This document shows positions 20,628 through 23,742 of a stretch of DNA of 64,000 nt, piece by piece. Made by a program: the position numbers and the translations under genes. The DNA is from Candidatus Acidulodesulfobacterium ferriphilum. Its GTDB lineage: Bacteria; SZUA-79; Acidulodesulfobacterales; Acidulodesulfobacteraceae. The notes beneath the pieces are model-generated. The model had not been told where the DNA came from and did not search any database. It saw nothing but the letters and a program-made list of their open reading frames with translations. Each line of letters opens with the position of its first letter. Position 1 is the stretch's first letter. The stretch is from NCBI GenBank assembly GCA_004195035.1, contig SGBD01000004.1, forward strand, positions 62,001 to 126,000. Direction: 5' to 3'.

Positions 20628-21251
20628 TTAATTTTTTTCAAAAATGTCTATTTCCTCGGCAACGCTTTGCGGCGATAAACCATCCGTATAAATTATCATA
20701 TCGGCTTTTTTATAAAATCTTTCCCGCTCGTCAAGTTTATTTTTAATATCCTTTTCGCTAAAACCGTTTATTCCTAAAACCGGACGGTTCTTTTCCGCCC
20801 TGATTCTTTGATATATCGTTTTGCCGCCGGCTTTAAGGTATATGGTATAACCCAATTTTTTCAATATTTCCATGTTGTTTTTATAAACCGGCATACCTCC
20901 TCCCGTGGAGATTACCCAACGTTTATCCTCTCCGTTTATAATTAAATTACCGGATTTTAAAAAAAATGGGTCTGATTTCAAATCAGACCCATTTTTTTCT
21001 TCTCTTAAGAAACTTAAAATATTATTTTTGTTTTTTTTGAAATCCTTTAAAATTTTATTTTCCGCGTCCCTGAAATAAGCCTCGCCTTTTTGCTTAAATA
21101 TTTCATTAATCGTCATGCCCTCGCGGCTTTCCGCAATATAATCGAGGTCAACAAAGTTATACCCCCATTTTTCTGCCAAAAGCCGGCCCACCTCCGTTTT
21201 TCCCGCCCCCATAAATCCGATAAGCACAATATTTGTTTTCATTTTCATCAT
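20628..21251 (-). CDS. aroK: Shikimate kinase with in-frame palindromic insertion
   Basis: The protein (207 residues) has Walker A GFMGAGKT at 12-19, DLDYIAESREGMTINEIF, GEAYFRDAE, the STGGGMP shikimate-binding motif and RAEKNRPVL (lid). It phosphorylates shikimate in the chorismate pathway and is paired with aroC. Family members have ~170 residues; the extra ~25 lie between the YFRDAE helix and STGGG and encode NGSDLKSDPFF from a 39-bp perfect palindrome. The reading frame is kept on both sides, so the enzyme is probably still functional. Start may be MMKMK or the second or third Met. Confidence 0.92.
   Translation of the reverse strand: MMKMKTNIVLIGFMGAGKTEVGRLLAEKWGYNFVDLDYIAESREGMTINEIFKQKGEAYFRDAENKILKDFKKNKNNILSFLREEKNGSDLKSDPFFLKSGNLIINGEDKRWVISTGGGMPVYKNNMEILKKLGYTIYLKAGGKTIYQRIRAEKNRPVLGINGFSEKDIKNKLDERERFYKKADMIIYTDGLSPQSVAEEIDIFEKN
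20959..20998. repeat. Small palindromic element inside aroK
   Basis: ATGGGTCTGATTT, one C, then AAATCAGACCCAT, extended by A- and T-runs. The arms are perfect. The element keeps the aroK frame and belongs to the same family as those in aroC and folE2 and downstream of pilQ. Confidence 0.85.
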
Positions 21252-21257
21252 CCTTTT

Positions 21258-21321
21258 CTGGATTCCCGCCTTCGCGGGAATGACTAACAGTGGTTGTCAT
21301 TCCCGCGAAGGCGGGAATCCA
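21258..21321. repeat. REP-like inverted pair between aroC and aroK
   Basis: CTGGATTCCCGCCTTCGCGG and its complement face each other across a 15-bp spacer. Each arm is itself a small hairpin (CCCGC-CTTC-GCGGG). This is the core of the MITE-like family without clear outer inverted repeats. It may slow or stop read-through between the two aro genes. Confidence 0.8.
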
Positions 21322-21339
21322 TGCTAATCTAATCCTTCA

Positions 21340-22563
21340 CTACTTTTTCTTGATATACCCTTCGTAATTTCTTTTAATCTCGTCTAAGCCGTCTCCGCCG
21401 AACTTTTTTAAGAAGAAATAGCAGATAGAAAAGGCCAAAGCGGCCTCCGCCACAACGGAAGCGGCGGGAACGGCGCAAATATCAGACCTTTCAAGAAACG
21501 CCTTTTTGGCTTCGCCCGTTTCTAAATCGACCGTGTCAAGATACGGCTTCATAAGCGTAGGAATAGGCTTCATTGCGCATCTGACGCTGATAACCCCGCC
21601 GTTAGACATTCCGCCCTCTATGCCGCCGGCATTGTCGGTCTTTCTATAAAAACTCCCGGCCTCGCCTTTGCCGCCGGTGAAATCAGACCCCTTTTTTCCG
21701 TAATAAATAGAATCATGATATTCTGAACCCTTTACAAAAGCCGACTTAACGCCCGAACCTATTTCCACACTTTTAATCGCTTGAATACTCATTAAAGACA
21801 TTGCAATATGGGCATCCAATTTCTCGTCCCACTGGGTAAAACTGCCCAGACCTATCGGAAGATTTTTTACCTGCGCGACAATTAAGCCGCCCACGGTATC
21901 CCCCTCTGTTTTCATCTTATCGATTAATGCTTTTGCCTTACCTTCCAAATCTGGATAAGGCATTCTAAGTTCGGAATTGTTAATATTTTTAACAATTTCG
22001 TTGTCGAAAAGGTCGATAGCGTCAAAGAAAAAGGCGTCAGAATTGAAATCAGACCCATTTTTAGAACCGGCACCGCCGATACTGAGCACCGCCGAAGCGA
22101 ACTCGATGCCGAAATTATTCAAAAGTATCTGGCATATCGCCCCGACAGCAACCCGCGAGGCGGTTTCCCTTGCGCTCGAACGCTCCAGAACATTTCTTAT
22201 ATCGTCAAGGCCGTATTTTAGCGAGCCGGCAAAATCCGCGTGCCCGGGTCTCGGAACATGAATTTTGGTTTCTTCGGGAACGGGCTTATAGGCATCCATT
22301 CTTTCTTTCCAGTTTTCGTAGTCCTTATTTTTTATAAAAAAGGATACCGGGGAACCCGTTGTATATCCGCCCCTGATGCCGGATAAAAATTCGATTTTAT
22401 CGGTTTCTATTTTCTGCCTTGCGCCCCTGCCGTAGCCCGATTGCCGTAAGACTAACTTTCTATCGATAAAATCCCCGTCTATTTTCACACCCGCAGGAAA
22501 GTTGTCTATTATCGTAACGAGTCCTTTTCCGTGAGACTCGCCCGCCGTCAAAAATCTTAACAT
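21340..22563 (-). CDS. aroC: Chorismate synthase with in-frame insertions
   Basis: The start MLRFLTAGESHGKGLVTIIDNFPAG and motifs GRGARQKIETD, RPGHADFAGSLKYG, ERSSARETASRVAVG, NAGGIEGGMSNG and ERSDICAVPAASVV are diagnostic. The enzyme makes chorismate from EPSP using reduced FMN. The 407-residue length exceeds the usual ~360-390 because of two insertions: SKNGSDFNSDAFFF after LSIGGAG, and KKGSDFTGGKGEAG before FYRKTDNAGG. Both insertions correspond to intact or half copies of the palindromic element. The gene is just upstream of aroK on the minus strand. Confidence 0.95.
   Translation of the reverse strand: MLRFLTAGESHGKGLVTIIDNFPAGVKIDGDFIDRKLVLRQSGYGRGARQKIETDKIEFLSGIRGGYTTGSPVSFFIKNKDYENWKERMDAYKPVPEETKIHVPRPGHADFAGSLKYGLDDIRNVLERSSARETASRVAVGAICQILLNNFGIEFASAVLSIGGAGSKNGSDFNSDAFFFDAIDLFDNEIVKNINNSELRMPYPDLEGKAKALIDKMKTEGDTVGGLIVAQVKNLPIGLGSFTQWDEKLDAHIAMSLMSIQAIKSVEIGSGVKSAFVKGSEYHDSIYYGKKGSDFTGGKGEAGSFYRKTDNAGGIEGGMSNGGVISVRCAMKPIPTLMKPYLDTVDLETGEAKKAFLERSDICAVPAASVVAEAALAFSICYFFLKKFGGDGLDEIKRNYEGYIKKK
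21678..21697. repeat. Half copy of palindromic element inside aroC
   Basis: AAATCAGACCCCTTTTTT equals one arm of the palindromic family; the other arm is not recognisable. It encodes KKGSDF in an aroC loop where other chorismate synthases have fewer residues. Confidence 0.5.
22027..22063. repeat. Degenerate palindromic element inside aroC
   Basis: Arms AAAAAGGCGTCAGAATT and AAATCAGACCCATTTTT are diverged from one another but match the family consensus. The element encodes NGSDFNSDAFF, parallel to NGSDLKSDPFF in aroK. Confidence 0.7.
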
Positions 22564-22592
22564 ATATTATTTCACCCATTCCTTGAAAAAGT

Positions 22593-22615
22593 GAAAAGGG
22601 GACAGACCCCTTTTT
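22593..22615. terminator. Bidirectional hairpin with A/T tails between folE2 and aroC
   Basis: GAAAAGGGG, ACAGA, CCCCTTTTT forms a strong small hairpin followed by a pyrimidine-rich tract on the plus strand and TTTTC on the minus strand. It could end folE2 transcription on the minus strand. Its GGGGTCTG half is related to the palindromic elements. Confidence 0.55.
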
Positions 22616-22652
22616 CTTCTTTTTCTTTATTTTTCTTTACTATACTTAATCA

Positions 22653-22798
22653 AGTCATTCCTGCGTAGGCAGGAATCTATGCCGCAATTAATCCCGATCA
22701 CATACGTAATTCTTTAACGCTGGATTACCGCTTCGCTCTCGTGCCTTACGGCACTCGTGAAGTTCCTTTAGAACTTTCCCGCTTTCGCGGGAATGACA
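22653..22798. repeat. Degenerate MITE/REP element downstream of folE2
   Basis: It contains TCATTCCTGCGTAGGCAGGAAT, split here as TCATTCCTGCG and TAGGCAGGAAT, and later CTGGATTACCGCTTCGCTCT, the hairpin CGTGCCTTACGGCACTCGTG, AGTTCCTTTAGAACTTT and CCCGCTTTCGCGGGAATGAC. The same CGTGCCTTACGGCACTCG and AGTTCC...GGAACT blocks occur in the copies at 43523-43644 and 48023-48238, so this is a second internal version of the core. Confidence 0.7.
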
Positions 22799-22813
22799 AA
22801 CCTCTGTTTCCCC

Positions 22814-23656
22814 TTATCCTTCTATCATTGCATAAGCATTATGATTATGTATGCTTTCAAAATTTTCGGCCTCGACTTTATACCACTTGATATCTTTGTT
22901 CTCTTTTAAAATTCCTGCCACGCACCTGACCACATCCTCGACAAACCTCGGATTTTCATAAGCATGTTCCGTCAGATACCTTTCGTCCGACCTTTTTAAA
23001 AGCGAATATATCGGAGAACTTGCGCATGATTCCACATCTTCTATTATATCTTCGAACCATATCAATTTGCTAAATTCGACGGAAACCGAAACGACGCCCC
23101 TCTGGTTATGCGCCCCATATTTCGATATTTCCTTAGAACAGGGACACAGGGTATTAATAGGCACCTTAACGCCGATTTTAATAACGCTTTCTTCATTTTC
23201 CTCAATACCCGCAGAAAAGGTGTCGGATTTAAAATCTGACACCTTTTCTGATTTATCGTTCCGCGCCTTATTTTTTATCGTGCCGTTATAATAACAAACA
23301 TACTCCATTAAGCTTTTTTTTCTGCTGACGGGGGCTGTTTTCTCGATAAAATAAGGAAATTCCATTTCGACCGAAGCCGAACCTGCATTCAAAACTTTTT
23401 TAATTTTCCTTAAAATATCAGGAAAGCTGACTATGCTTATTTCGCCCATATGTTCGTTTAAAACCTCTAAGAAGCGGCTCATATGCGTTCCTTTGAAATA
23501 ATGCGGAAGGTCAACATACATATTAATATTGGCTATGGTATGCTGGAGAGATTTTTTTTTATCGAGAACGGCAATCGGATAACTGAGATTTTTTATGCCG
23601 ACTTTGTCTATGGCTATTCCTCTTTTATCCTTCGAATTTTGAACATCTATCAACAT
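22814..23656 (-). CDS. folE2: GTP cyclohydrolase FolE2 (type IB) with in-frame palindrome
   Basis: The protein has MLIDVQNSKDKRGIAIDKVGIKNLSYPI, the H-containing HYFKGTHMSRFLEVL, FPYFIEKTAPVSRKKSLMEY, the catalytic VPINTLCPCSKEISKYGAHNQRG (conserved Cys) and AYENPRFVEDVVR. FolE2 makes dihydroneopterin triphosphate for folate or queuosine and works without zinc. It is ~280 residues; about 20 residues around KVSDFKSDTFS are extra compared with relatives and derive from a palindromic element at 23213-23249. No other folate gene is nearby. Confidence 0.93.
   Translation of the reverse strand: MLIDVQNSKDKRGIAIDKVGIKNLSYPIAVLDKKKSLQHTIANINMYVDLPHYFKGTHMSRFLEVLNEHMGEISIVSFPDILRKIKKVLNAGSASVEMEFPYFIEKTAPVSRKKSLMEYVCYYNGTIKNKARNDKSEKVSDFKSDTFSAGIEENEESVIKIGVKVPINTLCPCSKEISKYGAHNQRGVVSVSVEFSKLIWFEDIIEDVESCASSPIYSLLKRSDERYLTEHAYENPRFVEDVVRCVAGILKENKDIKWYKVEAENFESIHNHNAYAMIEG
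23213..23249. repeat. Small palindromic element inside folE2
   Basis: Arms AGAAAAGGTGTCGGATTT and AAAATCTGACACCTTTTCT are complementary but for one pair. It stays in frame and encodes EKVSDFKSDTFS. Same family as the aroK copy. Confidence 0.82.
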
Positions 23657-23703: not shown

Positions 23704-23742
23704 AGAAAAAGGTGTCGGATTTCAAATCCGACACCTTTTTCT
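23704..23742. repeat. Perfect 39-bp palindrome between pilQ and folE2
   Basis: AGAAAAAGGTGTCGGATTT, one C, then its exact complement: a 19-1-19 palindrome, the least decayed copy in the window. On the minus strand it lies 36 bp after the pilQ stop and ends in TTTTTCT, so it can double as a rho-independent terminator for the pil operon. Confidence 0.85.

Follow-up and report, generated by a model that had tools for sequence, protein, structure and literature searches.

The palindromes inserted in aroK, aroC and folE2 are, judged by their sequence, members of a REP/REPIN-type family associated with RAYT transposase genes, that is, a new family in a new setting, of a known kind. They lie in frame in these genes, and at orthologous genic sites they are kept near-perfect by paired changes on the two arms, probably through hairpin template switching or through homogenisation between copies. 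It is this upkeep of the palindrome inside orthologous coding sequence that is unusual about the system and worth following.

Palindromes in the aroK-aroC-folE2 cluster

In the window (the whole stretch of DNA analysed, 64,000 nucleotides) a single palindrome family is represented within a segment of 2.8 kb by four full copies and a half copy (Table 1). As claimed in the first-pass annotation, which had been made from the sequence alone, aroK, aroC and folE2 contain one in-frame palindrome of 35-39 bp each and aroC a half copy besides. All three ORFs are intact. The likeness between the added peptides, also claimed there, is borne out by the peptides that the elements encode in the three genes and in a transferase elsewhere in the genome. 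The core pattern GTCNGATTTNAAATCNGAC, allowing ≤3 mismatches, yielded five matches in the window, of which four, at 0-1 mismatch, lie in this 2.8-kb segment; 100 dinucleotide shuffles of the window gave a mean of 0.47 matches, and none reached five. A search of the window against Rfam returned no match. The same aroK/aroC/folE2 gaps also hold a second palindrome family (TTCCCGC..GCGGGAATGAC), at window positions 21259-21321, 22653-22677 and 22776-22801.

Table 1. Host genes and palindromic elements in the window
Feature	Position	Strand	Remarks
aroK (shikimate kinase), host gene	20628..21251	-	Pfam SKI 1.7e-40
Palindromic element in aroK, minus strand encodes KNGSDLKSDPFF	20960..20998	.	perfect 19-nt arms; without counterpart in L051 and other relatives
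aroC (chorismate synthase), host gene	21340..22563	-	Pfam Chorismate_synt 3.5e-108
Half element, aroC site 2, encodes KKGSDFTG	21678..21696	.	adjoins low-confidence residues 294-300 of AroC model
Imperfect 35-mer element, aroC site 1, encodes KNGSDFNSDAFF, residues ~168-179	22028..22062	.	four mismatched pairs; low-confidence residues 169-179 of AroC model
Short related palindrome AAAAGGGGACAGACCCCTTTTT between aroC and folE2	22595..22617	.	seen by eye; membership uncertain
folE2 (type I GTP cyclohydrolase), host gene	22814..23656	-	Pfam GCHY-1 1.6e-93
Element in folE2, encodes SEKVSDFKSDTFS, residues ~136-149	23212..23250	.	19-nt arms, one mismatch; low-confidence residues 132-153 of FolE2 model
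Intergenic copy between folE2 and next gene	23704..23742	.	perfect 19-nt arms; missing from the first-pass list

Distribution and reading frame

The genome from which the window comes (G000; 1.87-Mb assembly, 97% complete) gave 13 pattern matches at ≤2 mismatches, against one for the reversed pattern. About 12 copies were judged real, five of them genic and the remainder intergenic; locus L013 and all matches with three mismatches were discounted as chance. The genic copies comprise those of aroK, aroC and folE2 and a further two inside a single PMT-type transferase (NGPDLKSAPFF and INGSDLKSDPF), so that the genome search proposed with the first-pass annotation finds every genic copy in frame and in one same phase. 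Together with one intergenic copy, the two of the transferase make up a second cluster within 3.4 kb (L233, C1:147748-151114).

The relatives sampled were 30 genomes, all of one phylum (Acidulodesulfobacterales / SZUA-79-like), in a group that by AroC similarity takes in Candidatus Acididesulfobacter and SZUA-79; a search across the whole phylum yielded no genomes besides these 30. The palindrome family is common to relatives within this phylum. Across the family we catalogued 94 copies, 31 of which lie in verified genes, the genic or non-genic call being made by hand from ORFs, orthologues and Pfam. Three NtrC-type regulators carry an element in the linker ahead of the Fis-type HTH. When copies from relatives were fetched regardless of genes and classified by hand, 12 of 56 were genic and 44 lay outside verified genes. 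With these 12 of 56, and five of about 12 in G000, the palindromes show no targeting of genes. They share with REP/REPIN sequences a mainly extragenic location and the dispersal of a short palindromic unit in many copies (about 12 palindromes and 24 half-sites in G000, and similarly in relatives).

The claim that insertions keep the reading frame holds for every verifiable genic copy, and a preference for one frame extends well past the genes on which it was based: the centre base stands at codon position 3 in 30 of the 31 genic copies. The favoured phase is free of stop codons in 90% of copies and the other two phases in 38% and 19%, and open frames alone would predict about 61% of copies in the favoured phase. 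The catalogued copies are not independent; if they are counted as about 16 separate sites, 15 of these in that phase would remain unusual, by a binomial estimate of about 0.005. The favoured phase encodes a charged, polar peptide, K-G-S-D-F/L-K-S-D-P-F, and an alternative phase RGLISNQTPLF. Genic survivors would be found mostly in the phase that is nearly always open in the element and that yields a hydrophilic peptide. In-frame insertion in conserved proteins, with frames intact in the 31 genic copies, is also a trait of the Rickettsia palindromic elements (RPEs).

Filled and empty sites in relatives

The folE2-aroC-aroK cluster is conserved in relatives, where a given loop may be filled in one species and empty in another; orthologues either lack the insert or carry it elsewhere in the same loop. 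One relative, probably of the window's genus by aroK identity (L051), is empty at aroK, aroC and folE2, and another of this genus (L049, G008:C50) has copies in folE2 and aroK and none in aroC. At these empty sites the loops are short and no such peptide is present, in agreement with the first-pass statement that relatives have short loops there, and against its caveat that relatives without any palindrome might carry the same extra residues. Presence and absence at orthologous sites argue for a putatively mobile element; among the sampled relatives we found no target duplication and no exact pair of empty and filled sites from near-identical strains. The loop at aroC site 2, which holds a half element in the window, has full palindromes in some relatives, in phase 1 in L058 and in phase 2 in L046 and L086. 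This difference in phase implies at least two insertions at that site. The folE2 gene of L055 apparently carries two consecutive elements. In the AroC of LSA5.bin79 (L100, 5001-6455), the loop that bears the palindrome in relatives holds a long in-frame tandem repeat (NKDNINGIN).

When AroK and FolE2 are aligned with PDB structures, the residues that the elements encode (AroK query 80-107, FolE2 131-161) are left between the matched segments. The AlphaFold model of FolE2, of modest overall confidence (68), has pLDDT <50 at residues 132-153, between strands 114-129 and 155-169, and that of AroC has pLDDT <50 at residues 169-179 and 294-300, coinciding with the element coordinates. These predictions, suggested as a check in the first-pass annotation, place the inserts at low-confidence residues of both enzymes and support the view that they form disordered surface loops. 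Together with in-frame insertion and similar peptides, this lends support to the RPE-like behaviour proposed there.

The folE2 genes of the window, L054 and L080 are far closer across genera than aroC, the window and L054 sharing 89% DNA identity in folE2 and 76% in aroC. This suggests that folE2 may have been transferred horizontally between genera together with its insert, in which case shared folE2 inserts would not all be vertical.

Kinship with REP half-sites and RAYT genes

Each arm of the palindrome matches a REP half-site, ATAAATCNGAYNCCTT, which we found in 29 of the 30 genomes (24 sites in G000), against 0-1 per genome for the reversed-pattern control. Half-sites number 15 over the 29.7 kb that surround RAYT loci and two over 200.6 kb surrounding aroC, a difference in density of about 50-fold. 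IS200-type tnpA was considered as a source and rejected, half-sites being absent from the 27.4 kb around these genes. Half-sites adjoin RAYT in G012, G016, G019-G021 and two g2 genomes. One arm of the palindrome recurs as the core of AATAAAGGTGTCAGATTTATTTATT, the sequence that flanks the g3 RAYT genes (Y1_Tnp at about 50 bits, length about 250 aa); the NCBIfam RAYT model scored 71.6, below the cut-off of 80. At one RAYT locus (L134) sites of the AATAAAGGTGTCAGATTTATTTATT type stand inverted on both sides, and a long unit, AGTCGGGAGTAAG.GAATAAATAAATCTGACACC, is common to this locus and G000. About 12 single long REP units are clustered in G000 around repeated type IV pilin-like genes (L231, C3:3500-14800).

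The palindrome is two half-sites head to head, an inverted pair of REP units, and G000 also holds inverted half-site pairs with a longer centre, which are intermediate forms (L232). Because of the half-site kinship, the enrichment at RAYT loci and the presence of single units and longer-centre pairs in G000, we regard the palindrome as a compact, REPIN-like pair, in which two copies of the half-site AAAGGNGTCNGATTT would face each other around one base. This consensus contains no constant GTAG or CGTC, the tag that the GTAG/CGTC REP superfamilies have at one end of the stem. Of the initial proposal of a new in-frame mobile palindrome, the in-frame part stands; in place of an isolated new family there is a REP half-site, arranged in inverted pairs, that relatives also have beside their RAYT genes. 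This sequence family spans intergenic copies, genic copies and RAYT-flanking half-sites, and its core recurs in unlinked genes and intergenic sites, which makes it hardly credible that the inserts are unrelated loop expansions which chance, or template switching by itself, made palindromic without any mobile element, even if the non-palindromic tandem expansion in the same aroC loop (L100) gives that idea a foothold.

The probable agent of the unit's spread through the genomes of the group is a RAYT tyrosine transposase with single-stranded hairpins as its substrate. Most survivors are intergenic, and genic copies would persist only in frame and in exposed loops, tolerated without benefit to the host. 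No Y1_Tnp gene was found in G000 (97% complete), and current mobility there would therefore need a missing gene; likewise, no RAYT was found in the palindrome-rich G013, G018, G022 and G026, some of which are incomplete. Taken as a whole, a RAYT-associated REP family of compact inverted pairs, surviving in frame in loops and with its arms kept matched in place, is an explanation that we hold to be likely.

Paired changes on the two arms

Across nine orthologues of the folE2 site, seven of 20 pairs have changed on both sides and none varies on one side only. The site is 96% paired, compared with a mean of 84% for shuffles (which ignore the kinship of the sequences) and ≤52% for slid controls. 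Beyond the shared core, the outer arm bases vary with the species and still match each other: at offsets 16-18, 77-84% of genic copies are paired, the background being 26%, and in folE2 the outer bases pair with local host codons that vary by species (ATT GCC GAT, ATC GCC GAT, ATC TCT AAT). Between G000 and G008, whose aroK genes are 87% and transferase genes 81% identical, just two differences separate the aroK elements, the centre base and a single change on both sides (T-A to G-C); this two-sided change recurs in the transferase element, along with one unpaired base at the arm end. The three NtrC sequences, for which 23 of 500 shuffles reach the count of paired changes, are weak alone. As both halves of the palindrome change together across species, this piece of the enzyme loop appears to be shaped by the repeat and not by the enzyme.

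It is unlikely, if worth serious thought, that the palindromes are perfect because they are young, freshly inserted in each species at the same loop, as a hot spot or in replacement of old copies. In its favour are the mixed frames at aroC site 2, the gain and loss of copies from one species to another, and the variant shared by the aroK and transferase copies of G000. Against it, the outer arm bases of folE2 pair with host codons that differ by species, and the flanks of the aroK element are identical in G000 and G008.

If the hairpin served the mRNA, for example in attenuation, RNase processing or translation pausing, selection for paired stems in folE2, aroC and aroK would account for paired changes at orthologous sites, for near-perfect, stable stems and for an element common to three adjacent biosynthetic genes. 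We consider such a function improbable: the hairpin is missing from many relatives at each site, decayed copies exist (aroC site 1 in the window, L044, L050), and the same element occurs in unrelated genes and between genes. Moreover, G-U and A-C mismatches are equal in genic copies (five and five, small numbers), and RNA selection would favour G-U; correction at the DNA level therefore fits better. For the intergenic copies, a role as terminators was considered as a possibility.

In the RAYT-associated REP reading, many genic copies would be kept near-perfect by their own hairpin, which most likely favours either template-switch (quasipalindrome) correction or a conversion of one copy by another, with the result that both arms change together. 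Published reports make template switching responsible for the origin and upkeep of hairpins (PMC8794818) and for the homogenisation of inverted-repeat arms within coding DNA (PMC8604942). A bolder form, possible though on the whole doubtful, is that genic copies are live members of the REPIN population, both arms being rewritten in place by hairpin-driven copying or conversion. If true, the evolution of enzyme loops would be tied to that of repeats at other genomic sites and not to protein selection.

Comparison with known systems

These palindromes resemble REP/REPIN sequences with RAYT (PMC3116915, PMC8266576) in that short hairpin units, either single or as inverted pairs, are dispersed and lie near RAYT genes; for REPINs, including intergenic ones, changes that compensate each other across the hairpin have been reported too (PMC3116915). 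They differ in that a fair share of copies is genic and in frame, in a pair centre of one base, and in a genome of their own without RAYT. They also lack the GTAG/CGTC tag of most described REPs, and their copy number is lower than in Pseudomonas, where REPs typically number hundreds.

Precedents for palindromes in genes are the intragenic REPs and the Rickettsia RPEs. REPs inside coding sequences have been described in several bacteria, including Rickettsia RPE-4 and RPE-6 (PMC3733652). Like ours, intragenic GTAG/CGTC REPs occur in ORFs of several species, add residues to unrelated proteins, and have been suggested to occupy flexible linkers or loops (PMC3733652); here, by contrast, sequence family and phylum are others, and paired changes are seen at orthologous sites of several species. 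The RPEs reviewed in PMC2229807 are likewise in-frame palindromes in conserved proteins and also lie between genes; these are of 105-146 bp, whereas our units, compared with them by description, tie to RAYT half-sites. With our results, the known range of in-frame palindromic repeats takes in a group of acid-mine bacteria from a phylum that is free-living and poorly studied, and the repeats are linked by sequence to a transposase family. Perfect palindromes are also kept inside coding genes in the mitochondria of Nematomorpha (PMC6649704), where both arms encode conserved protein, while here the element forms an extra loop. Orthologous genic copies in several species allow the maintenance of a palindrome in coding DNA to be traced one change at a time.
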